From Membranipora membranacea (lineage: Eukaryota; Bryozoa; Gymnolaemata; Cheilostomatida; Membraniporidae), in the NCBI GenBank assembly GCA_914767715.1, contig OU612065.1, positions 19,342,001-19,406,000 on the forward strand: 64,000 nucleotides of DNA. Reading direction: 5' to 3'. Position numbers and translations under genes: made by a program. Shown one piece after another: positions 13,901-57,100 of this stretch; positions within the stretch are counted from its first letter, which is position 1, and each line of letters begins with the position of its first letter. The notes under the pieces are model-generated. The model was not told the origin of the DNA and made no database searches. It saw nothing but the letters and a program-made list of their open reading frames with translations.

Positions 13901-16900
13901 AAGAGCTACAGACACCCACAGGTTAATCCCTGTCACTGTGAACATACAAATACTGCTTAAAGACTACCCAAAGACCATTGCATGTTATAGTCGGGAAGTT
14001 TGTCAGATTTGCATGGTAAACAAATTCAAAGCTCTACTTGACATGAATAATTGATGGTGGAAAAAGTGCCTCCCATAAGGGAAGGTAACTCCCATTCTCT
14101 GCATTACGATGTCACAGTCTCACGGAAATGCTTGTTGCTTGTAGTGCACTTCCAGGAGACTGTGACATCATAATGCAGAGGATGGGAGTTACCTTACCTG
14201 CCTGCCTGCCATAACATGAATTGATCTTTGGGTGTCTTTAAGTGCCTTAACTATGAGCTTAGGATTATGAAGCCCCATGGATTTAAAAGACAAAATGTTC
14301 AAGAAACGGTGTACACAATATTGATTACTGGCTGGCAGTATATATATTTATATATCAATGATTGCTGATTTTTTGAATATAAAGATTCACAAAATATGAA
14401 TAATATGCTCAATTGTTTGACAAATCATACCTGCAGATACTGCTAACGATGGCCCGTATATCACCAAACCAGTAATAACCAGCTGTGAGAAAAACGAACA
14501 ATAGCATGGTGTAATATAACCTTTTTGGTAAGCTGCTTTAACTGACCTTTAAATTCCAATCGAATTACAATTAAATTTTCTATTTATCTTTACTTCAGAA
14601 AAGGAGCTGTCTTACATACCTACAATAACAGAAGATATAGATGAATGAGGCAAGGAGTTAGATACTTTAACTCCTTGAATAAGGGAACAGTGGCTGTAAG
14701 TTGTTCATTGTCACAAACTCTGTCAGTTCGAAGATGAGTAATTGTTATATATATATTTATATATCCATGTCATTTGCATTGGTCATTTTATAAATATAAA
14801 GCCACTCACCAGGTTCAAAATAGTTGCCCATTCTACAGTTAACTTCACTGCTTTTCCGAATCGTAGATCAAGGTACTATAGATATAAAAAAAAGAGGATT
14901 AGCAGCTTGACAACTGTGTTAAGGCCAATCCACAATGTCCCAGATACTGATCCCAGATGGTCCCAGTCCTATGTGCACATTGTAAACCCATCCCAGTGTA
15001 GCAATTGGGTTTTTGACAAGGTTTGGTTTGGTTTAATTTGTTGTGACATATATACATGTACATACATAATATAGTGAAATGATATAATGGTTTTGCCGCT
15101 GATGACTAAAAAACTAAAAGGTTCAAATGATAAAAAGTAATTGATAATAAAAAAAATAGCACAGATACAAACTAAAATAGAACATTGTATTAGCGTTTAC
15201 TGGAATTATTGCAGACAATTATAAAATGCCGTATAAAGCTGTCACTACCGATTGCTGCTCGATGTTTGTATGATTGCAGCCTTCCAGATCGGAGTTTAGT
15301 CAAGAATGAGTGGAAAGGATGGTGTTCATCCTTCTGTATGTGGATAATAAAGGAGTTCATTCTATCTTTGACAATGCAATCAAAACCACAGTTCTCTAGG
15401 CCATAGCTGCTTGCAGTTTTGTACACTTTGCGGATTGACTTGATGTCTCTATCATATAAATTGCTAAAAATGACTAGCAAACAATAGAAAAAACAGGATT
15501 CAACAAAACTACTAAAAATCTGATTGAGAAAATGATTGCTGGCCCTTAAAAACTTAAACTGCTTGACTAGATACAGGCGTTGTTTAGCACTCAATATTTT
15601 ACTTGCGATGTGGTTCTCAAAACGCAGTTTATTGTCCATTGTTACGCCAAGATATTTGACACTGGTGCTGGGAGTAATCACTGTGCCATCCAGGGAGAGC
15701 TGTTCAAAATCTGGGGGGTTACGCTGGGTAGTGAAAAGCATTTCATTTGTCTTGGTTGGGTTTAGCAGTAAATCACTGGATTTGCACAAAAGACTTATCC
15801 TACTGATCTCATCTAAATAGTTTGCAAAATCTGCATCAGCGGCTATGTTTCCAATTATAACAGTATCATCTGCGTATTTCAAAATTGGGACAGTTGAGTC
15901 CTTTTCAAATCTCAAGAAGAAGGTGTTCAGCTGATCTGCAGAGAATAATGGTATAGGTGTGGTTGTTGATGGATCGGTTGTCAGCCCTCCCATTTTCTTA
16001 ACATCACGCCATAGCTTTAGCTGGGTTTTTTGATAATTGTTCTTCTATATTCTGAGTGTATTGTTTTTTAGATTTGATGAGCTCTTTAGAAATGGATCGT
16101 TGTAGATGTCTAGCAGTTTTGGTTTCACCATTCCGTGTTGCTGCAAGCTTGTCATGCAGAAGTTTTGAAACGTGTTCATTAACCCAAGGTTTGCTGTTCT
16201 GATATAGCTTTTTCTTTACTGAGGGTATACTCAAATCGGTGCAGAAATTAATATATCCGGTAAGAACTTCAACTTGCTGATTGATATTGTCTTTGGCATC
16301 GATCAACACATCCCAATCTGTGCAATCGAAGCAGCCTTGTAATATCTCACAGTTGTCATCTGAGAATACACGTTTGTCAATCACTTTAGGTTTGCACAGT
16401 GATTTCGGCTTGTAAGACGGAACCAGATGAATAATATTGTGATCCGACTTACCCAAGGTATTCAGCTTCTGGCAGTATTTGTAGGCATTCTTGACATTTA
16501 CAAAACATTTATCTAGAGTTTTTCCGGCTCTAGTTGTTTTAGTCACTACTTGTTGATACTTTGACAGTTTTAGTGCTAATGTGTTGAAGGATTGCAGCAT
16601 TTGGATATTTAACCTCTAATTCTTGTATGTGTTGAGTAATGTAATTTTTTGTGCTTTCAGTGTTGGCAGCAGTTTTTGATTGTCCCGTTAGTGCTGGGGA
16701 AACTATGATATGCGTTCACATTGTTTTTGATCGTCCCAGATAGTCCAACAGCATCCCAGATCATCCAAATATTGTATTCACATAGTACCCAGTAGTCTGA
16801 GCCCCCTGAAATCTTGCCCCCGCCTGATGCCCCCCCAGCCGTGGCAAAGTACCATGATGTAAAATGAGTCTGGGTCAGTAATGTAAAAGTTGTAGCAAAC

Positions 16901-30515: not shown

Positions 30516-33500
30516 TTAAAACTCCTCAGCCCAAGGGTTTTCCTGCAGATACATATCAACTACTTCTTTCATTGCCAGGTTCGGTATGAGCTTCTCAGCA
30601 GTTAAATCAGCACGAGTGACAGGATCAAAGTGTCCAACCCTCTGCAAACAAAAAGGATCACAAGTCCTCATCTTGTGTTTCTACTATATGAGACAAATGA
30701 CTGCAACTGACTCACTACTTGACACACAAGGGGGGAGGGGGGAGGGGGCAAGGGTAAAAGGGTTAACCATATGCATTATGACACATTTTCCAATACGACC
30801 GATGTTGATTTCAACAACAGCTAACTAAACATAAAATCACTCCAAAACTAGCTTAACAAAACTCTAACTCCATATTTACTCCTCTAAGGGTACATGGAGC
30901 ATTGAGAAGAAACCATATTAGCCAAATTAGACTCACTCTACTGAAAACTACTTGCAGCAGTAGTGGAAATGGTTCAATTTTATATTCCAATTAATTTCTG
31001 TACATCATTGTACATGAAGAAAAATTGTCTATGATAATATCCCACAGGCACATATAATACTAAATAATACAAAAAAAATAACATCATACATTGCTATTGA
31101 ATACCCCAGATCAATTTTAATACAATTGCCTGCGTTCCAGTTGCTCCCTTCCACTGTTCAAGCCTGCGACGTGACAGGTTGAGGGGGAGCAGCTCCGAAT
31201 GCAGGCAAATGGGCCAAACTTGGTCTAGGAATACCCTAATGTAAACCTGTTTTTTTTTATAACTTACATGTAAATGCTGTTCTATGTCCTTCTTGTCATA
31301 TGTTATACCACTAGGAGTGATCACAGGCTCTCGCATCAACTCAAAACTTATTTTCCCGCAAAGATAGTCTGGAACATCCCTAGTTTTCCTTCTATCATCC
31401 ACTTGTTTGAACATGTCATTTAACTCTGCAATCTTACCATCCTGGATTTAAAATAAAAAGCGATTCCTGCCGAGTAATTTGAGATGTTTTTTCTTCAATA
31501 TCCATTGTTATAAATCGGTTTTATTGTCATAGCCAAATAAGGCGACTTGAGTTGATGCAAATGTGTTCTGAACCTTGATGTCCGTGTAACTAGTAGAAGG
31601 AAAATATGCGGACCCGAATAATATTACGCACAATGAATTCTTGATCAATCTTTATCACAGAAAAAAACGTTGGAGAGAAAGGTAAAATGTGGTGAAGGGG
31701 GATTGATATACCTAGATCAAGTTTGACCCAATGTGTCTGCATTCCGATTGTTTATATTCTAATGGGGAGCAAGCGGCAGCTCAAACTCCGAATAAAGGCT
31801 AATTGGATCATACTTGTTCTAGAATTCACCCAGTGTAACGATAACCATAAAGGCTACTCACACAGTCATGTTCTATCTTTTCTTTTTCATCTGTGTTGGA
31901 TGAATCCTTTAATCTTCTGAAATACAAAAGATTTTGGTGTTAGGGTTTTGTAGCCTGAAGAAAGTGTAGGTTTTGACTACGCTTTATGGACTTACGATAC
32001 CCTTACAAGTTTTCCGTACGATTTGCAAAAAAAGGAGTGGACAACTTTTGTGATTGACAGGTTTCTACCAGGGAGTTAGGGATTATGTAGGTATTAGGTA
32101 TTTTCATATTTGTCCCTTATGCACTTCCCAAAATACCTAAATTTTGCCCCAATAACTTATCACCGTGTAATGAGCATAACAGGGATAAAGAAGGTTGCAG
32201 AAATGCGTACTAATGATGACTTGCAATACACTCCTCAAATATGACCTTTCAAATTGATTGATTTAACCGCGTATTGCAAAAAAGCAAGATTCTGAGTGAA
32301 GACATTGATTTCATCTTCTGATTTCTACTCTCCCGATTCTGTTTAACTCAGCAAAAAAACCGCAACAAACTGTATTGATCTTATTTATATAGACATATAG
32401 ACAGTTTTCATCAGAATGTGGACTTGAATTGTGTCAAGATAGTTGGTAGTGACATTTCATTTTCAACCACTTTCTACTTTCCTTGGGAAAGTGGTTGGTA
32501 ATGAAATGCCACTACCAGATATCTCGACATAGTTTGAGCGCTTAAACTAGACTAGAAATCGAAGGCAGTTTATTTGCCAATCAAAAGTCTTGAGCTTGAG
32601 ATGAAATTAAGGTAGTCTAAGTGCTCAGACTCCAAGTCGCAGGCAGTTACCTGCGCCAGGAGTTTGATAGCTGGCGCAGGTAACTCCCTGCGCCTTGGAG
32701 TCTGAGCGCTTAGACTAACATTAAGGATACTTACTTTTCTTTATCTTCTAGTATGAGATTGTTGAGATATGATTGTAGCTCTATCTCCTGTTGTATTCTC
32801 TTCTCCTCCTGAGCGTTGAATCGCTTCCTCTTAGCCTTTCTTAAAGCACCGGAGATATCATCACCAAAGTTTAACCTTTGGTCCTTCGCTAAATCAAAAG
32901 CTACAAGAGCGAAAACATTTTCATTTCATCGACATTGTGGTATAACGATTTTTCCACCATAGCAAACTACCTCATATTTGAGCTTTGAAAACTGCCCATA
33001 TAAGGCATCCGATGTAATTTTTCAACTGTCAGCTTCCAGTAGCCAATGTGTTGGCTCCGATTGGCTAGGTGGAGCCAACACATAGACTAAGCTTTCAACC
33101 TTATCCAAGTCTCAAAAGTAACCATGAGTTGATGCCATCTTGCATTGACAACATTATACTAACCTGTTAGTGTTTGCTGCAATGGTGGAGATTCAGGCTC
33201 ATGATAAAGAATAAAAGGTGCAGGAAAAAGCATTGATCTGCTAAGGAACAAAGCTTGACTTAGCTGAAACGGCATTTCAAGTGTACTGAACGCCAATGCA
33301 CAGCATATAGTGAAGGAAATTTTGATAGATATTAGAATTCATTTAGGCAATTAGAATTCTGCTGGTACCGAAAAACATACTCCACAGATAGTCGCATTCT
33401 TGTATCATGTGATGTGCTACCATCATGAAGTTCATATGAGGATGAGAAAAGCTAGAGTTCTGGGTTAATTGGGTTAATAAGTTGGGTTAAAATTGCATGT

Positions 33501-36710: not shown

Positions 36711-37064
36711 TTAGTTACCAGGGGGCACTTCGGCATGTACAGCATTAGGATCTACAGCAGCTGGTTGAGCTGCCTGTTCAACATGTTCTACTGGTTGTGG
36801 TACATGTTGCTGCACAGGTTGCTCAGCATGTTGCTGAACTTGTTGTACTGGTTGCTGAACTGGTTGCTGTACTGGTTGCTGGACTGGTTGCTGAATGGGT
36901 TGCTGAACGGGCTGCTGGACTGCTTGCTGAACTGGCTGCTCAGCTTGTGCAGCAGGTTGCTCATGCATCTGTTGGGCTGGTGGATGTGCGTTATCTTGAA
37001 CTGGTGCTGGTGGGTCCTGGTTTTGTTGAGCTGGATCTACATGAATATTTTGTTGTGGGGGGAC
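36711..37064 (-). other. Nucleobindin last exon: PVQQ-repeat Gln-rich tail
   Basis: 118 codons, rich in Gln, Pro, Val and Ala. The middle is a run of [10 protein letters not shown]-type four-residue units, bounded by [14 protein letters not shown] before and [14 protein letters not shown] at the end. Vertebrate NUCB1 also has a Gln-rich end, but this one is longer and periodic. The 12-bp underlying repeat can expand and contract, so length variation among individuals is likely. The frames on the opposite strand (Leu/Trp-rich) are shadows of the repeat. Confidence 0.85.
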
Positions 37065-40000
37065 CTATCGAGGATAAGAGAGAAAAAAGTCATTTAGATT
37101 TGTGAATTCTGAGTATCACAATATAGCATACAGTGATTTCTGCTTTGTGCCATAAAATTATTGTTGAGTTGCCTGCTTTCACTTACACCTCCAAAAGTAA
37201 CCTCAGATTCCAAGTAGGAATGAAAATATGTACATCTCTAATCAACGAGGAGCATTGATTGATTTCATTCCTTACCTCATTTCGTATTTCTTCAGCACCA
37301 TTATTGTTGGCCTGAAAGTAAATAAATTATAATTTTTCAATTACCTTGGTATCAAGTTCTTTAATATCAAGGAATATAATATATCGGGTATCTGTACTAG
37401 CACCTGCAAAGCTGTCTGTGAAGCTTAGAATTTTAGTAGTTCAGCCACGTAATACAAAACAATGCAATAAATCTTTTAAAAAGTCACCAATCAAGCAAGT
37501 AGAGAAGAAGAGAGCTGCCACCAGAATTGTCATCGAGAGACATTGGTGAGGCTGGATTAGACCAAGTTTGGTCCATTTGCCTGTATTCTGAGTTGCTCCC
37601 CCTTCACTAATGACAAGTGGAGGGGGAGCAACTGGAAAGAAGGCGAATTGAATCAAACTTGATCTAGGCTAGATGGTGGTGGCTTTGAGAAAAAAAAACC
37701 CAAGTGTCATGCATTACAATTTTGACAAGTAGTCATAATAATCTATGGAATTGTTCAGACAAGACAGATTGAATGTCTAGCAAGGTCTTGAGGTAACGAA
37801 GAAGAACCAGTAAACAAATGAAATCATTTGCTAAGACAGGACATGCAATATTGGAATAAAATAAATCCAAGGCTTCAACAGCCAAAATAAAACTGCCCAG
37901 TTTTTTTTTGGAAAACCAGCAAGCAAGATTTTTGGTACCTGCATGAGGAGCATCTCCTGGTGTTGGCTATAATGAAGAGCACAAACAACACATAGTATAT
38001 TAGGTATCAGTCATGTTATCTTTTTGCTTACTTGATAACTTGAAACCATAGATTTCATAATTAAGTCTATGTTTGAAACCCATCAAGTAAGGTTAGAAGT
38101 GATGTTCCTAGAGGCAGCAAACACTTGTAGCACAAATTATATTGCAGTTTCCAAAAGCGCGTAACCATTCTAAGTAGGAACAAGAGTACATCTTTGTTGG
38201 TATAAGGAGAACCTAACTTACATGTTTTTCTTGGAATCTGGCTTCTTCCTCCTCTAAGGCTCTTTCAAACTCATCAAACTCTTTAACATCATATGCATCT
38301 CCGTCATCTAATCCCTGCTGAACAACATTATATGAGATAACACTTGCTAAACCATTTCTATCAATATTGTTATTGTAGTCTGAGCCCCCCCAGAATCTTG
38401 CCCCCGCCCCATGGCCCTCCGACCGGGCAAATGTTGTTGCTGTTTGCTGCTCACTTACAAGATTAACTGGTGAAACGGGAATTTCAACCCGATTCAACCA
38501 ATCTGTGAATAGTTAAAATTGAAAATATATCAAACTGAACCAGAACAATCAAAGTATTAATGAGAGGATCAGGACCAGCTTAGTCTGAGCCCCTAGACTC
38601 TTGCCCCCGCCCGGGAAGACCATTAGGCTATCTGAGATAAAACTATAGAGGATCAAGTTCAATGACAGGGTCAGAGCGAAAAAAACCAATGAGTTTTTAC
38701 TGCGCCAATACTCTACTGTAAATAATGTGATGAACATCATGCGCTGTAACAACAGCAAAGTTGGTAATATGACACCTATTGTCAGGTGCTCAGCGTTGCA
38801 AAATTCTGTAATTTATCAACCAAAAGAAGATGACCTGATCTTCCTAGGTATTCCAGGTTAAAGTGGGTAGAAAAGCTGAAAACTGGCCCTATTTAAAGTC
38901 TACTAACCTCCCAGTCATCCTCCTTCTCAAAATCTTCCATTTTAGTGGAAGAGATGAACTCATCGAATGAGACGAGACCGTCCATGTCTGCATCGATTTC
39001 ACCGAATACATGCTCTCTCATCCTATTCATCTCCTCGTCTCTCTCTACCATGTCATCATCAGGGTTAGAAGAGTTATATACCTTATCAAGCTGTCAGATA
39101 AATTATTATTATTATACATAGTGAGGTTTTCATTTATATAAGTATGTTATAAGCAAATGAAAACAACAACTTTTGACCTAATAGAAAAAAAGAAAATATA
39201 TATATATATGCTCAATAATAATAATTAGATGGGATCTGCTGGTTAGCCAAATAAAATATGCATTTATGTTAGTATATTATATGATTGTTATAATTTGCTC
39301 CTTTTTATCGAGCATGTATGATGATCATGTATCATTATAAAATATACTATTTTTTGAAATGATTGGTCTTCAGTTTTCCACAGATGCGAGTCCCTGTTAT
39401 TTGTTATGATTGTGTTTCTGGGGAATCTTCAATGGATAAGAATGAACTATGAGGCCCAAACACTGTTTCATGAATTCTGCAACATTAAAATGAAAAACAT
39501 AACCCACCTCAGTCTGGAAAAGGGCTTCGATCTCAGGTACATTCAAGAAACCATCGCCATCAATATCTAAAAGTTCAAATATATCAAAATTTAATCTCAT
39601 TCATTTGAATCTTGATTTATAAAGCCTGCAAAAAAATATTTAAGGGGTTTGTGAGTGATGGGAAAATAATAACAACAGCAACAGCCTCATGAAATCATTT
39701 TTAAAGTTGTCATCTCAGATGCATTGAGCAGGCAAATCACAAAATCAATTAGAAACTTTCATAAACGCAGTCACAAATTGGTATTAATCCGCAAAATGCA
39801 TAAATTGAACATTGAAATGTTAGCGTTGCAATTGTTTAAGCTATATAAGCTGTATTAGTTGATGAGACAGTCGAATTGTATTGTTAGGGTACACCATATG
39901 TGCGGAGGTACAAATATGATATATCGGAGTACGTTGATTTGATGGCAGGAAATCGGCAGGGCAAATCAAAAAGCCATGAAAGCAAGGCCACAGGATCACA

Positions 40001-43000
40001 AATATGATACAAAAATTGGTGAGCAGGTTTTGGATTTGGAAGCAGCTTGCCTTCATGATACCTTCATGATAGCCAACACAAAACATGAATGTTACAAGAG
40101 TTTATTGATCTCCAGGGTCCCTCACCATATATTGCATATCTGCCTCACATTAACATCAGCCCTTCCCCAAAACCTGTGGAGGGTTAACATGCTGGCCTCT
40201 GATATTGTTTGTCACATCGCTAAAAACCGTTCAAACCCGCACAAGTACCAGTGCGAATACCGGTATATTGAGTTCTTTGAAACAAACAATGTACGTGACG
40301 TGTCATTAGTTCGTGCTTTACAATAACGATGGAACTGGGCACGATGCAGAGAGCTTAGGCTGATATCTGTTTCTGGTGTGTGTTAGATGGATTTACATGT
40401 GCTGTAATAAACTTCTGCAGGTTTTTGCACAGTAGGGGAGAGTTCCGATCACACATAAATCATACATGAAGCGAACATACCGTGGAGCATGAAGAAGGCC
40501 TTAGGATCAAATTCAGTATTTTTCATGTCATCCTCCTCATTCCAGACCTCTTCTAATTGTTCTTTATTACCCTACATGATTAACACCACAGCTATACGTA
40601 CAAACACCGAGCACCATTAGGGATTTGAATTAGCGATTATTGAGTGCGGGATAACTGCATTATTACTTATAATCATAAGAGATGGAGCCGCACAGACAGT
40701 GCGTAGGAGATTTGTGCAGATTTTGACTGCACATTTAATCTTTTCAACTCTAATTCAGCAGTAGACTGCACTACGCACAGTGGAGATCTAAATCTACTGA
40801 GGCTAAATGATATATCTAAATGATATCGAGGATAAAATGAGAGGATTTGAGACATTGTTTCCCTACCACCAGTTATGATATTGACATGAGACATAAGACA
40901 TCACAGTAGGATATTTTTTCCCTATACCACACAGAGCATTGGAAGTACCTCAGATGAGAATATTTATTAGTAAAAGAATTATGATACAAAACACCATCCA
41001 ACCAACTATCTGATAGGTGAACATCTATGGCAGTATTTTTAACCTCAAATTATCAGCAAACATCCCAGACAACACCGGACAACCAAATCCTACAACCGCC
41101 ACCACGTTCAACTCTAAAATGACATCAGCACTAGAAGCAGTATCCGATTAGACGACAGCCTTAACATGCAGCAGTCACATGCAGGCAAGGTGTTAGAAAG
41201 TGCTCTTTCCTTTGCACCTTACCATGTAAACCAAAGAAAACATTAGGATTGAACTCAGCAGGGTCCATTCCGTCCTCCTCTTCCCAGACTTCCTCCAGCT
41301 GTTTCTTGTTTCCCTGCAGATCACATGTTATTGAGATAACCAGGGTTTGTCATTATTATTATCAGTTCTTATATGATATGTCAATTTACTTGTGTGCCAG
41401 TCAACAATATGTTAGCTCAAATATGTGTCAGCTCACATATCTGTTGCCAATCGGCAGCCAAGGTACAAACAAGTCAAACAATACAGGAACCTAGAATCAG
41501 GGTTACAGCATGCATGCAAGAGTGCTAAGTACATGTGGCAGTCCCAGAGTGGATGTTTCACCATAATGTGGTTTGCGAACGTCAAGCAAACAAATCAGAG
41601 AAAGTGTATGTGGATCCTCACAGCAGGACCCAGTCAAACTTGTGTCTAAAGGACTCATTCATTGTAAACAGTTAAACCCTACATGCTTGATCAACTTTGT
41701 GATAGCCCACACTTTGTAAGCGATATCTATCTTCGGCCCTCAAATATATTCTATCCATTTGTTTCAGTGGCAATGAAGCTCTAAGCATAGAGGTTAGTTT
41801 GAAACACTGTCAGGCATTAAATAAGGATAAGAATAGAAAGAAATGACAGGAATGCCAAAAAACTGGTGGTGGGTAGACATAGACTTAGTGAAACAGTAAC
41901 AATTGATGTATAAATGAAAAAATTAACCACAGAGCCCAGTGAAATGGGAACTGCATTTAACCAGATGGGACGTACACACAGAATTAAACTCTATGGACAG
42001 AGGTTATTTTTCCCCTTCCCTGAAAATTCTCATGCGGTAATATTCTCATACGGTATTATATCAGCAAAGTCAAGAAAAACTCAAATCCTATAACCTATAC
42101 CCAATGGAAAAACCTGAGGAAAATGAAGTTGATGAACAACAGCGGAGGGTAAAAAGATATAAAGCCCAATATGTGAGATTTGGTAAGATTGACATACCGG
42201 ATGGTTCATTTTAGGGTGCTCTTTATGTCTCTTCTGGCTCTCCTCGTGCTCCTTTCTGAGCCTCTCCTCCTCTTCTTTATCCTTAGCGTGTTTGAGCTCC
42301 TGTCTGTACTCGTGCTCTTTGTTCATCTCGTAACGCTTAAACTCATCTTTACGCTTTTTGTCCAAATTTGCTAAATCATCTGTAGTCTGAAAACGGAAAC
42401 AAATGGCTGTCACACGCTGTTTGACATTTTGTATTTGGGCTTTCATACTGTTATCCCAACAGTTAAGGCAAACGCCAATTCTTGACTGGACTAGGACAAG
42501 TTCAATCTATTTGCCTGTATTTGGAGTTGCTCCCCCTCGAGATGACAACTTGTCAGTAGAATGAGAGCGAGCTGAGATACTGGTAAATTGCTAGACTATA
42601 TTGGCATATCCAGCCCTTTTTTCATATCAAATCTTATGTTACTAAGAGTTAAATATTTGACAAAACTGATTATCCAAACACAGAACTGCACAAGGAAATC
42701 ATTTTGTTGCCTATAGATGTTATGTTAAGTTTATTATGGCCTATTTCTCGAGCCATGATCAATTGATCTTGATTGTGAGAGGGATTGTTGACATAACTGT
42801 AACAACACACTCTCTTATCACGTCACAGATGCGCAGTCCCATGAAACCATTGCAACTCATCTAACCTAAGTTCTCGGACAAATATATGCCTCCACATAAG
42901 AATCTAGCTCTGCCATTGACCAAAGCCAATGCGACACCAATCAGCTTAGCTGAGTGTATAGTTGAGACACTTACCTTTTTGATGAGCTTTTTCAAATCAT

Positions 43001-45737
43001 CAATTTCAAAAGAATGTGGATTAGAGTGGTCCACATGGTCTGTATCTACTTTTGGAAGATCTACAATTAAACCACGAAATCATAATTAGTAAACATGTAT
43101 TTTAGAATGAACCTAATATTCACAGAGAACAATGTATGAGTTTATCAGACCAACTGTCTAAGCACCAACAAGTCAATATGTCAGAGTAAGACACAGAGTA
43201 ATGAAGGAGAAAGTCAAACCAAACAGATATATGATACAAGCAGAACAACAACAACAACAGTGCCAAGATAACAAGCAGAGCAGGTTCATGAACGCCTCAA
43301 GTCACATGTATAACTTATTACTATTACCACGCAAAGCTCGACGCCCTGTGAACAAAAAAGCTGATCATCAGCATGTCAAGAGGGTGGTCAGCAGGTTAAC
43401 TACAGGTGGAAAAGAAGTCTTCTAAGTGACAAATAGCCAATATTTAGGTACAATTGGTTGTTTGGTGAAAAGACAAACATGGAAAGGTAACGAAAGCTAC
43501 AACAGAGTTAATGGCATGGCAAACATAAGGTAAGTGTTATAGGGTGTGATGTGATAAGCAGGTGTTATATACCTTGCGGATGTCTCTTGCCAGCTCGGAT
43601 GTCCTCTGAAATGTTATAAAACATCAAGGGACATGACAACACGAAATCAAACTCTCATTTTATGAGATAAAGAAAGATAAAATAGACCCGTTTATCCCCA
43701 TTGCCTCTGCCTTTTTATCAAATAATCTGTTAAATCAACCACAGTATAGATCTAAATCCATATTTAATCACTTATTATTAATTGTTGTGGGTCTTCCCCT
43801 ACCCTCAACTACAATGAAAATAGTTTCTGTGACGACTACTCACACCAGGATGCAAAGGAAATCCTATTGCTTATATTATTATCACATTAGTCTATTTGGT
43901 CGTTTGCCAAAGACAGCAAAACAATCATAGTAAACCAAAAATTTGAATGTACATGAGTCGTGTTGTTCATTTGACAGCAGAATGAAAATTCACCTTCCCA
44001 TCAAAACTTAAGAGAGTATATTTCATTATGAACCATCTTCCCATATAAAATGGTGGGAAGGTGGTTGATAACGAAATGCTACTACTCTCGACACAAGCAG
44101 CGTTTAAATTACTTAAATTACAGAATATTTTCATACCTGCGGTCTCTCGCATGAGCTTTTTATGGAGATCTCTCAGTCTTCTTACTTCAATCCGTTTTAT
44201 CTCATCTAATTTAGTTCTCGTATTTTTATTGGCAAACTGCAAGTAGTGAGCGATCTGCCCATTCTGCAAATAGATGAATTGTAGATAACATTATTTCACA
44301 TGCCATACCTTTCCCAATATCCCTTCTACCAGTATCAACATTCATCAAATCTCAAAAGATAAAACATATATGAGTATGTCTGAAAAACAATTGTCCCTGT
44401 CTGCAACCAATAAAACATCAAAACTGGAAGAGGATCGGGTAAAGGATATGTCAAAGTTGATGGGACAAAGTAGGAAATAACTGGGATACCAATTAACAAG
44501 TCAGGACCTGGAATAGGAAGAAAGAAAAATTCCCATACCAAAGTCATCCACCACCAAATGACTTAATATAAGCTGCGAATATGTTAACCAGCTTTAGGCC
44601 TATTAGCTTTCCCTATGCATAAACACAGATTTGAGCAGCATTTTTGAACCTTTATATCATCTTCAGTAATATTTGCAACAAGTTTTTGAAATTCTTCATC
44701 CTCTTCCAGAACAAATACAGTTTCGTTCAAATAATTTCTGTATTCAATAAGCAGTAGGTTGTTGTTATCCTCCTAGAGAAAATATAAAATTGAAGTTAGC
44801 GGTTGAATGTATAATAATTAAAAGTTAACATATTTATCTAACATACAGCGAGGTCTTTCTGGCCGTCGTCTCCCATTTTGTCAAGCTCTGCTTTGAATCC
44901 GTCATCAGCTTCCAAAACCTGGACAACCTCCTCTAAATATTTCTTATATTCTAGTTGAAGAAAATTATCCTGCCAATGTACAGAATATAAAGGTATACAA
45001 ATATGAAGCAGTGGATCACATGGTCACATCAAGGAGTTAGTAACAAGCGTTGCAGGCCTGCAACAAGATTGAAGATACTTCTGGACCTGAATAAGTTTTA
45101 ACCCCAATGAGTCCCTCCTTACCAGGACTAATTACCGATGAAATTAACCCTTTTTTTCATCCCGACAGAAGTTAAACATTTTATGGTAAGATAAGTGGCT
45201 GATATGAATGTGACGCAAATTGATGCTTTTTCCGATTCCTGACAGTAGGATGTTCCCGCTGGTTTGGTGGACAAACAGATTTCCGAATTTGAACACTTGT
45301 AACCAAATTGAGGGATAGTTTGCCAAATTTCCCAGCCAGCATATGTTTGTCTTGATAACTGAGAATAACTGTAACTAATCCAACCCTACCTATTGACCTG
45401 ATGAGAGAGTGTAGCCAATATGACCAACATCAACGTATGCATGTAACAAGCAAAATGAATAAAAAACTGTAGTGGTAGCAGAGAACTGACATGAGCAAAT
45501 TTATAAAATTCAAGAGTAAACAGTTCAAAAACTATAAATAATATTGAATAATAAATAATATTGTTTGTTTCAAGTTTATATTCACAATATTACAGTATCT
45601 TTACTTACATCCATTGGGTCTGTTCCTTCTTTCACCTCAGGTATATGAGGCTCTGGGTTGACAGGAGCTCCATGGCAAACACTAATGAGTCCTAAAACTA
45701 ACAGCACAGCAAAGGCTGTGCACTGAGAGCTCACCAT
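36711..45737 (-). CDS. Nucleobindin (NUCB1/NUCB2-type Ca2+-binding protein)
   Basis: Secreted/Golgi calcium-binding protein. Exons in coding order: 45609-45737 (signal peptide, cleavage probable after VCHG near residue 23), 44847-44969 (2a) and/or 44650-44772 (2b), 44137-44263, 43573-43605 (33 nt), 42975-43060, 42198-42386, 41223-41313 (7a) or 40481-40571 (7b), 39508-39566, 38908-39090, 38222-38314, 37949-37966 (18 nt, uncertain), 37276-37311, 36711-37064. With one exon of each pair the product is about 506 residues (human paralogues 420-461). Exon 6 has the family's [16 protein letters not shown] segment and HPKMNHP. EF-hand 1 loop is [12 protein letters not shown] (about 260-271) and EF-hand 2 [12 protein letters not shown] (about 312-323), both with full ligand sets. 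Exon 10 ([16 protein letters not shown]) matches the position of the G-alpha-binding segment reported for calnuc. The tail is built of PVQQ units. Confidence 0.93.
37558..37666. mobile_element. TAGAYCAAG-family palindromic MITE, copy 3
   Basis: Ends TAGACCAAGTTTGGTCC and (reverse complement) TAGATCAAGTTTGATTC. The flanks GGCTGGAT (37550-37557) and GGCTAGAT (37667-37674) are an 8-bp duplication with one mismatch. The centre pairs GTTGCTCCCCCTTCAC with GTGGAGGGGGAGCAAC. It lies in an intron of the nucleobindin gene. Confidence 0.75.
38376..38428 (-). repeat. G-rich dispersed motif, copy 4
   Basis: Minus strand: GGTCGGAGGGCCATG, then GGCGGGGGCAAGATTCTGGG and GCTCAGACTAC. It lies in nucleobindin intron 9, with copy 5 (38581-38618) about 150 bp away in the same orientation. 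The open frame that reads through it (38213-38497) is intron read-through. Confidence 0.45.
38581..38618 (-). repeat. G-rich dispersed motif, copy 5
   Basis: Minus strand: GGGCGGGGGCAAGAGTCTAG then GGGCTCAGACTA. Same intron and orientation as copy 4. Confidence 0.4.
40481..40571 (-). other. Nucleobindin alternative exon 7b (91 nt)
   Basis: Encodes [17 protein letters not shown] then [13 protein letters not shown] plus the first base of the EF-hand-1 aspartate codon. It has a good acceptor (ATGTAG) and donor (GTATGT). It has the same length, phases and alignment as exon 7a at 41223-41313, with roughly 60 percent residue identity. Because 91 is not a multiple of three, a transcript with both exons or neither loses the reading frame before the EF-hands. 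Confidence 0.85.
41223..41313 (-). other. Nucleobindin alternative exon 7a (91 nt)
   Basis: Encodes [17 protein letters not shown] then [13 protein letters not shown] plus one base. It is the closer match to the vertebrate segment (VWEELDGLDP...FNPKTFF). Acceptor CTGCAG, donor GTAAGG. It is separated from 7b by a 651-nt intron. It forms the entering helix of EF-hand 1 together with exon 8. Confidence 0.88.
42490..42545. mobile_element. TAGAYCAAG-family MITE, half copy 4
   Basis: CTAGGACAAGTTCAATCTAT followed by TTGCCTGTATTTGGAGTTGC and TCCCCCT matches the left half of copies 1 and 3; the other arm is lost or very diverged. It lies in nucleobindin intron 5. Confidence 0.55.
44008..44095. mobile_element. 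Fold-back MITE (family shared with 32432-32530)
   Basis: Left arm AAGAGAGTATATTTCATTAT and CATCTTCCCA; right arm TGGGAAGGTGGTTGATAACG then CTACTACTCTCGACAC. It lies in nucleobindin intron 3. Confidence 0.55.
44650..44772 (-). other. Nucleobindin duplicated exon 2b (123 nt)
   Basis: 41 codons starting [20 protein letters not shown] and ending NITEDDIK, homologous to exon 2a and to the vertebrate YHRYLQEVIDVLE...AEDIK segment. The ending matches the vertebrate segment better than 2a does. The donor GTTCAA is weak, so inclusion may be regulated. Both boundaries are phase 0. Confidence 0.82.
44847..44969 (-). other. Nucleobindin duplicated exon 2a (123 nt)
   Basis: 41 codons starting [20 protein letters not shown] and ending DDGQKDLA. 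Same length and phase as 2b; donor GTATGT, acceptor GGCAG. The intron to 2b (44773-44846) is 74 nt; its best branch-point match, CTAAC, puts the branch A about 51 nt from the 5' splice site and about 23 nt from the 3' splice site. Confidence 0.82.
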
Positions 45738-54100: not shown

Positions 54101-57100
54101 CAGACAGTTTGTTTACTTAGAATTATGAGTTTGGTTGATGATGATGATGGTCCTTTTCAAAATTTGGACGGAAAGAAGATTTTGATTCACGGTCTCCTCT
54201 CGGTGTGTGAAGCCAAGTAAAGAATGAATAAGACAGTCATGCCAAGCATGCACATTCAGATGAAATCTTAAAATACATCTACCAAATAAGTAAAACATAT
54301 TTTCACTCAAATCAATGAAAGAATAAAATATAAGATATTATATACTTGAAGATGTAATGTATTTTTTGGTCTGAACTTGCTTCCCCTTCTATATGGGGTT
54401 ATTGGAAAGAAATCTGAAGCTTCTTTGCCATTAATTCTGAAAAAATATGACTCCTCATTTTCTACCAAATCAGAGCACCTCATTTTAAGTAAATCGAGAA
54501 TATTAAATTTGTTTATATAAAATGCAATTATACTTACCTTAATCCTGACAATGTTCGAGTCATGTATATCATCCAATAATGATAGAGGAATATCTGTCAC
54601 GAAAAATAGTGATGAAAAAAAGTCCATTCTACACTATTATTATTAATAACACTATAGATCATAAGGCTATGAGATCCGAGATGACAGCCCCTAGTATTGA
54701 TAATCAGAAGCAGCCAGCAGTGTCTTCTTATGATGAAGTCTACCAACTCGTCACCAATTCTCATCTAATTCAGCCAGCAGATCAAGCCAGCTATCAAAAG
54801 GTAATATCGTGTTCCATAATGATAAAGACTATAGATGATGTTGATCTGTGTTCTCTCATTTATTGTTATGAATACCAATAATGGGGGTAGTGGACCAGAG
54901 TAACAGTTGCTTAATAGTTGTACCACCAGTAATTCATCAATCTTAGCTCATCACTAAGATGGAGGAGCTTGACTCCTTGATCAGATTAAATATGGTGTAT
55001 CCATTATTCATGGCACTTGTTGATTGGTTGAACTTTGGTGTAAAAGAGATCAAATTCTCAACAATGGTAAACCACATAACCAAAGAGGGGCAAAGAGGGG
55101 TTAATCTTAACGAGTGCACAGCATTATATTCTAGGATAAGATGTTAATAACAAACAAAGGCGGAGCTGGTTGCGGCACTTAATTGCAGCTCTCAGCGTTT
55201 AGCAAACAAAGAGTAACTTAATATCAGGTCAGGCGATGGGCCAATTATCGGCAACTTAACTACGGCGTATTCAATACCATAAGGCCTGGTAAAGGATATG
55301 ACGTATATCTGGGCAATGTTCTGCTTATCTGAGCAGATAAATAAATGGATGTTGACATGATACCAATATTGCGTGACCACCTGTATCATCTCATAAGTCT
55401 TATTTTGTTTTGTACTGGAGTGGCAGGTGAAAAGGAATCAAGTCAAAGGACAAAAACCAATTGGACATTAGGTTCCTTCATGCCGAGCTAGGGTTGGGTG
55501 TTTTTGAGGGACCATAGAAGAGTATCGCTTCTCGGCCTATTGGCTAAGATCAAAGTGTAGTATCTGTTCTAATCAGTTTAATATCTGATTCGTGGCACAT
55601 TGTGTCACTATGATATTAATCTGATTTTTGTAACTAGGCGGCGCGCAGAGGCTTGCTTCGGCGCTGCCACGAGTTGTCCTGGTATTGCAGTACCTCCAGG
55701 CACGGCTCACCCCTCCACATCGGAGGAAAATAAAATCAAAGAAAGTTATCCATCAAAACCTAAAGCCACCCCTCTTACATCCAAAATTTGAGCACTTATG
55801 GTTATGTTATTCATTATTGTGATTACAATCAAATCCAATTTTTTTAATGCTTGTTATTTCAAATAAGAGCATTGGATTTGATCAGACTCAAAATCGGCAA
55901 CCATAGATATATAGAATATGAAAATGATGGATGTGATGTGTGGGTATTTTGAGGTCTTGAATGGCCACATTCGCCAAATTCAACAACAATGAGACCCGAG
56001 AGTTTACACCTTGGTCGTTGTTGAAAATATCTAAATTATCTAAAATATTTGAGGAGAAAATTGCAATCACCATTGTGGCTTTCAAAACTTATATATAAAA
56101 ATATATAGCTTGACTTAGTTATAAATGAGTTGTTATCCAGGCAACACTGATTTCTTGAGTGACTTGGCAACACCACTCCAGTCATATAAGGATACATTTT
56201 GTTTTGACCACCCCAGTCATTTCACATAAAAAAACTTGACACAATTATACATCACAAGCATTGTCATCTTCTAAAGAAGGATTCCTCTTTGCACACACGC
56301 AAAATTATGTTAATTGAATGCTCAAATGCCTCAAATTTGTCACTAATTACCAACCATGTTGTTCGTGTTATTAAACTTACTAAACTTATCAAACTTTATT
56401 TGTAGACATCAGTCTTACTAACGCTATGTCTGCTAGACACCGAGTTCTTTACTTCAATACAACACCCAGAAGAAGGACTCACCATACACCACCCCGATGT
56501 ACTCTACATAAGTGATCTGATCCTGAGGCACATCCAGCAGCTCATATGTAATGCTCATGCTATTACTATGATACAAAGTGCTGACGGAGCTGAAGAGAAA
56601 GCTGACTCTCTAGTATACGAGGAATCTCAGGAGAAATTAGCCACTGCTATCTACCCGACAGCTAGCCTCATGAATCATTCATGTAAACCTAATATCATTG
56701 TCAGGTATATATATACCACTAAATTATTTATATAGGTACGTGGTTTAGGATTTTTGATCAGAATAGGATCCTTCCGGTGTTTTGGCAGAAAAATTATTTT
56801 TCTTGCTGTTTGATCGCTGAGCAATGGATAGCAGACAAAGAAATACATATGGCAGCATATTCATATATTAGATATTATAAGATATTACTTATGTACTGAT
56901 GCCAACTATATTTATTTGATTACAGTTTTCTAGGAAAGCGACTGGTTGTGAAAAATTCTGTTGACCTAAAGAAAGGGGATGAAGTGTTCAACTGTTATGG
57001 TAAGACATACTTTTAGCTATCCTGTCTAATAATTATTTATTTTGATTTTCCTCACTGGCAGCTATGCCCTTTAGTTGAAAAGAATATGAATATATTGAGC

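Follow-up and report, generated by a model that had tools for sequence, protein, structure and literature searches.

Tandem exon pairs in a nucleobindin gene of the bryozoan Membranipora membranacea, with an exon 7 pair predicted to be mutually exclusive

A nucleobindin gene with a duplicated exon 7

The stretch analysed here, hereafter the window, comprises 64,000 nucleotides (nt) of the bryozoan Membranipora membranacea (contig OU612065.1, positions 19,342,001 to 19,406,000 of the forward strand), and its minus strand carries a nucleobindin (NUCB) gene whose hand-built spliced model opens with an ATG at 45737 and closes with a stop at 36711 (coding span 36711..45737). The nucleobindin identity, already proposed in a first-pass annotation made from the letters alone, is supported by two domains of the protein: the model matches the Pfam family NUCB1_N (PF25434), the N-terminal domain, with 117.5 bits (E=6.8e-34; cut-off 27), and its EF region matches the EF-hand pair of the nucleobindin 1 structure 1SNL with E=4.9e-31. 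The N-terminus by eye seems to resemble a signal peptide, and exons 11-13, which form the 3' end of the model, were also positioned by eye.

Downstream of exon 6 (42198..42386, minus strand), which ends in phase 0, the gene has two adjacent homologous exons of 91 nt, namely 7a (41223..41313, minus strand) and 7b (40481..40571, minus strand), separated by an intron of 651 nt and followed by exon 8 (39508..39566, minus strand), which holds the loop of EF-hand 1 with its first codon split between exons 7 and 8, and by exon 9 (38908..39090, minus strand), which holds EF-hand 2 according to the spliced model and the 1SNL match. Each copy is bordered by AG and GT. As the first-pass annotation had described, each is entered in phase 0, left in phase 1 and encodes 30 residues; the span given there, 40481-41313, coincides exactly with the outer limits of the two exons. 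The two exons are identical at 59/91 bases (65%) and at 20/30 residues, a likeness very unlikely to have arisen by chance, and tblastn with 7a against the window and the paralogue locus described below (composition correction off) recovers 7b at E=3.6e-11; leaving aside the exon of the paralogue, the next matches have E>=0.75, and hence no third copy was found there. Against 1SNL, 18/26 residues are identical for 7a and 14/26 for 7b, and the EF domain reaches 110.8 bits (E=4.9e-31) with 7a and 100.1 bits (E=1.1e-27) with 7b. The donor of 7b scores 3.5, near the 3.6 of exon 6, where the scores of the 15 donors were computed from a donor consensus.

When the four exon combinations are translated, the reading frame stays open through to the terminal stop with 7a alone or with 7b alone, while inclusion of both leads to an immediate stop (LHG and then two stop codons) and omission of both to a stop within exon 8. 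The pair thus consists of neighbouring homologous exons of like length and equal phase, as expected of a mutually exclusive cluster. By frame alone, 7a and 7b would also agree with the criterion of PMC5740500 that joint inclusion be absent or break the frame. The frame logic put forward earlier therefore stands in its outcome, since the double and the null product both stop early, but with one refinement: the frame does not pick an exon, it only makes the wrong products non-functional.

Coding constraint and history of the exon 7 pair

By codon position, from first to third, 7a and 7b differ at 9, 4 and 19 sites (of 30 each; Fisher p=1.6e-4), with a dN of 0.25 and a dS past estimation by the NG86 method, and LWL85 and YN00 yield no value. 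Because the differences are fewer at the first two positions (13/60) than at the third (19/30), the pattern indicates that both copies are kept as coding exons. A protein search with the form containing 2a (see below) and 7a through the genome (339,339,785 bases in 18 contigs) gave 17 matches at E<=10 among 20 candidates scored, of which 11 belong to this gene and 6 to a second, diverged nucleobindin-like gene on contig 2 (35346500-35356400). This differs from the statement in PMC5627052 that invertebrates have one nucleobindin per species. As far as tblastn shows, the paralogue has a single exon 2 and a single exon 7, the latter again of 91 nt and phase 0/1. The residue identity to this exon is 16/30 for 7a and also 16/30 for 7b, as against 20/30 between 7a and 7b, and since the two copies are nearer to each other than to the paralogue, the duplication of exon 7 probably came after the split of the two genes. 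The single 91-nt exon in the paralogue also means that the asymmetric length was inherited, and an asymmetric exon, once doubled, can give a working product only through mutually exclusive splicing. In a human survey, lengths not divisible by three were reported for 377 (60%) of 629 clusters (PMC5740500), so that a frame-breaking length seems to be a common safeguard.

From these features we consider it probable that 7a and 7b go back to a single asymmetric exon of 91 nt that was duplicated in tandem, and that they are spliced in a mutually exclusive manner. Each mRNA would then run from exon 6 to either 7a or 7b and on to exon 8, and transcripts with both or neither would shift frame, reach a stop and be expected to be lost by nonsense-mediated decay.

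It is unlikely that one exon only, in that case most likely 7a, is used in the mature protein and that the other copy is decaying or silent. Although 7b is without the DP that is found in 7a, in the paralogue and in 1SNL, it has an open frame, the full 91 nt, both splice sites and a donor about as strong as that of exon 6, and its differences from exon 7 of the paralogue are concentrated at third positions (11, 8 and 19 by codon position; p=0.0063), a test to which a recent loss of use would be invisible. Still less probable is a switch of quantity, in which double inclusion or double skipping would yield a nonsense transcript lowering the protein level instead of two working isoforms; the early stops of both these products would suit it, but a poison exon needs neither coding constraint nor completion of the EF domain, and 7a and 7b show both. 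An assembly artefact in which two haplotypes or the paralogue were collapsed into the locus, which the first-pass annotation had named as a possible refutation and which might be thought of since second-haplotype contigs were separated and deposited apart (PMC10290214), is hardly credible, as the copies share only 65% of their nucleotides with unrelated introns on either side and a DNA search of the genome with 40400-41400 finds a single place, itself. In fact no similarity was found between the 250-nt intron flanks of 7a and those of 7b (best match 9 nt, E=0.31), which together with the coding constraint argues that the duplication is old.

Predicted effect of the exchange on EF-hand 1

The ten substitutions between 7a and 7b lie at residues 4, 11, 15, 17, 18, 19, 22, 24, 25 and 28 of 30. 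Four of them fall at positions 15-19, where GMDPA in 7a becomes DMKNT in 7b. At this place 7a has MDP in common with the paralogue, 1SNL has LDP, and the DP is absent from 7b; more broadly, 7a retains the DGxDP segment as in 1SNL, and the diverged form in 7b is DDMKN. The entering helix has the same two Phe in both exons, and both have the LH that precedes the loop. The swapped piece had been taken to be the entering helix of EF-hand 1, and the helix is indeed included; however, the exon also covers the preceding segment, and the four substitutions at positions 15-19 lie before the helix.

As had been stated, the loop of EF-hand 1 lies in exon 8, where its first Asp is completed via the split codon: both 7a and 7b end in a G that joins the AT of exon 8 into an identical Asp codon. 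Because the loop is encoded there and either exon restores the same first Asp, the ligands of the EF loop are unchanged by the swap, and the Ca2+-coordinating loop residues are not altered as they would be in an on/off switch of the alpha-actinin type. The two products would thus have the same EF-loop residues but differ in the helix that enters EF-hand 1 and in the segment before it. Judged from the residues exchanged, the swap would most likely tune the binding of a partner or the Ca2+-induced conformation, and such tuning seems likelier than an on/off switch of Ca2+ binding since the swap spares the loop.

A second exon pair in the nesfatin-1 core

The earlier description, which holds for the exon 7 pair and its frame, had missed both the paralogue with its single copies and a second tandem pair in the same gene. 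Exons 2a (44847..44969, minus strand) and 2b (44650..44772, minus strand) are each 123 nt long in phase 0/0, with all flanking introns in phase 0, so that they too are adjacent homologous exons of like length and equal phase. Both encode a copy of the active core of nesfatin-1, as seen from NUCB1_N and from the alignment with M30, the nesfatin-1 mid-segment whose sequence is printed in PMC3516497: 2a is identical to M30 at 12/26 aligned residues and 2b at 8/20, and 0 and 1 of 2000 shuffles, respectively, score as high. The copies agree at 15/38 aligned residues, and their differences by codon position (13, 12 and 27 of 38; p=1.4e-4) are again concentrated at the third. Compared with exon 2 of the paralogue, the identities are 15/34 for 2a and 13/32 for 2b, as against the 15/38 between 2a and 2b, and these counts fit either order of exon duplication and gene split.

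The NUCB1_N score is 119.7 bits with 2a alone, 119.7 with 2b alone, 132.3 with both and 76.6 with neither. With these equal scores, 2a and 2b would each be able to fill the same place. The exclusivity of this pair is weakened by the fact that joint inclusion of 2a and 2b stays in frame, and such inclusion is not disfavoured by the score, which is higher when both are present. The donor of 2b (gttcaa) has the lowest score of the 15. Weighing this, we lean towards an alternative use of 2a and 2b, as a reading of the sequence held with less confidence than that for exon 7. Two N-x-T sequons (NET and NIT) are seen by eye in 2b and none in 2a.

The intron between 2a and 2b (44773..44846, minus strand) has 74 nt and is the shortest of the 15 introns of the model, the next having 211. 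The steric criterion quoted in PMC5740500 is a distance under 50 nt, and within this intron the donor is followed at 22, 29 and 51 nt by yTnAy motifs, which are motif matches only. Exons 4a/4b of OGDH, which is not an EF-hand protein of the nucleobindin family, offer a comparator for so short an intron, with the difference that branch points in the 2a/2b intron are known as motif matches only. A perfect match of 53 nt between the flanks of 2a and 2b was dropped, since in an intron of 74 nt it is one sequence overlapping itself.

Besides these pairs, two candidate microexons on the minus strand, microexon 4 (43573-43605, 33 nt) and microexon m (43328-43345, 18 nt), were picked by eye from AG/GT borders and are unproven. 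The former would insert 11 residues and the latter GRRALR, and the inserts by eye carry dibasic, possible prohormone cleavage sites; including both lowers the NUCB1_N score slightly, from 119.7 to 116.2 bits. The exon of the Pro-Val-Gln-Gln-rich tail contains a 12/36-base tandem repeat at 36806-36940.

Possible control of the exon choice

In Caenorhabditis elegans, RBFOX proteins set the mutually exclusive choice of unc-32 7a/7b and egl-15 5A/5B via UGCAUG (PMC3585155). The introns flanking nucleobindin 7a hold such candidate sites as well: UGCAUG occurs at +40 (41178..41183, minus strand) and +53 (41165..41170, minus strand) from its donor, and about 200 nt upstream of the exon lies UGCAUGCAUG with two overlapping copies (41509..41518, minus strand). 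A count of at least two UGCAUG within the 60 nt that follow 7a is reached by 5/5000 dinucleotide shuffles, and 60-nt stretches with at least two make up 0.145% across the minus strand of the window. The motif is absent within 250 nt of 7b and of exon 7 of the paralogue. As to placement, it stands downstream of 7b in unc-32 and upstream of 5B in egl-15, and here it flanks 7a, where binding is putative. Exons coding for RBFOX-like RRM domains were found on contig 1: of 8 RRM matches, the best and a further one lie there 2.6 kb apart on the same strand and read GFGFVTF and RLHVSNIPFRFR. The choice between 7a and 7b would thus probably lie with trans-acting factors, among which a protein of the RBFOX type would probably favour 7a through the UGCAUG pair past its donor.

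Several observations weigh against the reading of 7a and 7b as a mutually exclusive pair under such control. Exon 11, the only one among the 15 other model exons with UGCAUG within 250 nt, likewise carries two (at +92 and +226); at least four UGCAUG in the two introns are reached in 77/5000 shuffles; the window is in general rich in the motif on its minus strand, with 29 occurrences against 15 on the plus strand; and it is one of five motif classes that were examined in the introns. The acceptor tracts of 7a and 7b are pyrimidine-poor (0.50 and 0.56), yet those of exons 4, 8, 9 and 11 are no richer, so that weak acceptors are no mark of regulation here. Finally, ungapped pairing between introns is no better than in dinucleotide shuffles, of which 152, 108 and 191 of 200 reach the observed value.

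With the best pairing within the range of shuffles, RNA docking or selector pairing is unsupported as a mechanism of exclusion. For whole-intron duplexes, block shuffles reach the observed energy or lower in 2/40 for the introns 6-7a with 7a-7b and in 15/40 and 33/40 for the other two pairs, and around 2a/2b in 35, 5 and 4 of 40; the value of 2/40 points the opposite way, in favour of docking, but it is not relied upon because such a result mostly reflects composition. Three inverted repeats were listed, one of which (40856-40874 / 41861-41879, -21.8 kcal/mol) brackets exon 7a. Steric exclusion of 7a and 7b was rejected in view of their intron of 651 nt, and so was an incompatibility of U12 and U2 splice sites, the sites of both exons being by eye ordinary GT-AG.

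As a tentative extension, and one on which we would not yet rely, the two pairs might be independent and both mutually exclusive, giving four isoforms of a secreted prohormone and Ca2+ sensor, with two possible N-glycosylation sites added by 2b and with an RBFOX-type protein controlling the EF-hand choice.

Relation to known systems

EF-hand exons that are duplicated or mutually exclusive have been described in alpha-actinin, and duplicated, exclusively used exons in P/Q-type Ca2+ channels (PMC9177970, PMC9741552, PMC4435478). In alpha-actinin 1, and also in ACTN4, exons 19a/19b resemble the present pair as mutually exclusive EF-hand exons (PMC9741552). One alpha-actinin isoform loses Ca2+ binding and a brain form includes both exons, whereas in nucleobindin the swapped exon does not contain the loop, and joint inclusion breaks the frame. 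The P/Q-type channel CaV2.1 is another Ca2+ protein with duplicated exons used in a mutually exclusive manner (PMC9177970). It is a membrane channel and nucleobindin a secreted EF-hand protein, and the likeness is not meant to imply that the exon pairs share an ancestor. The exons concerned in CaV2.1 are the EF-hand exons 37a and 37b.

Vertebrate NUCB1/NUCB2, the precursor of nesfatin-1, is alike in the EF region (1SNL) and in the M30 mid-segment (PMC3516497). In a limited search of the open-access literature, by the text available there, no description of a tandem exon pair in nucleobindins was found, vertebrate NUCB1 and NUCB2 included, and NUCB goes unmentioned in the main text of PMC5740500, the survey of human clusters. 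Since EF-hand exclusive exons are already known elsewhere, what appears new is a predicted swappable exon 7 pair in a nucleobindin together with the 2a/2b pair in its hormone core. If exclusive use is true, nucleobindins would join those EF-hand proteins for which mutually exclusive exons serve as a means of tuning. A swap in the hormone core with a separate swap in the lead-in to EF-hand 1 would, if true, provide ready-made isoform pairs for tests of segment function, in a field where as of 2022 no receptor for nesfatin-1 had been identified (PMC9004410). The genome note PMC10290214 gives public poly(A) RNA-seq from the very colony that was sequenced (ERR6464929), so that the main claim could be tested at little cost.

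Other features of the window and the genome

Outside the nucleobindin gene, the window contains a full-length match to the U2 spliceosomal RNA (55524-55715, plus strand, 180.5 bits) and a stretch with a U-box domain (31097-31447, minus strand). Matches to reverse transcriptase (RVT_1) lie at 252-1656 on the plus strand and 15193-16044 on the minus strand, of which only 946-1656 is above the Pfam cut-off. The mitochondrial genome (contig 18) has 14,741 bases, and its COX1 by eye reads sensibly if AAA is taken as Lys and AGR as Ser.
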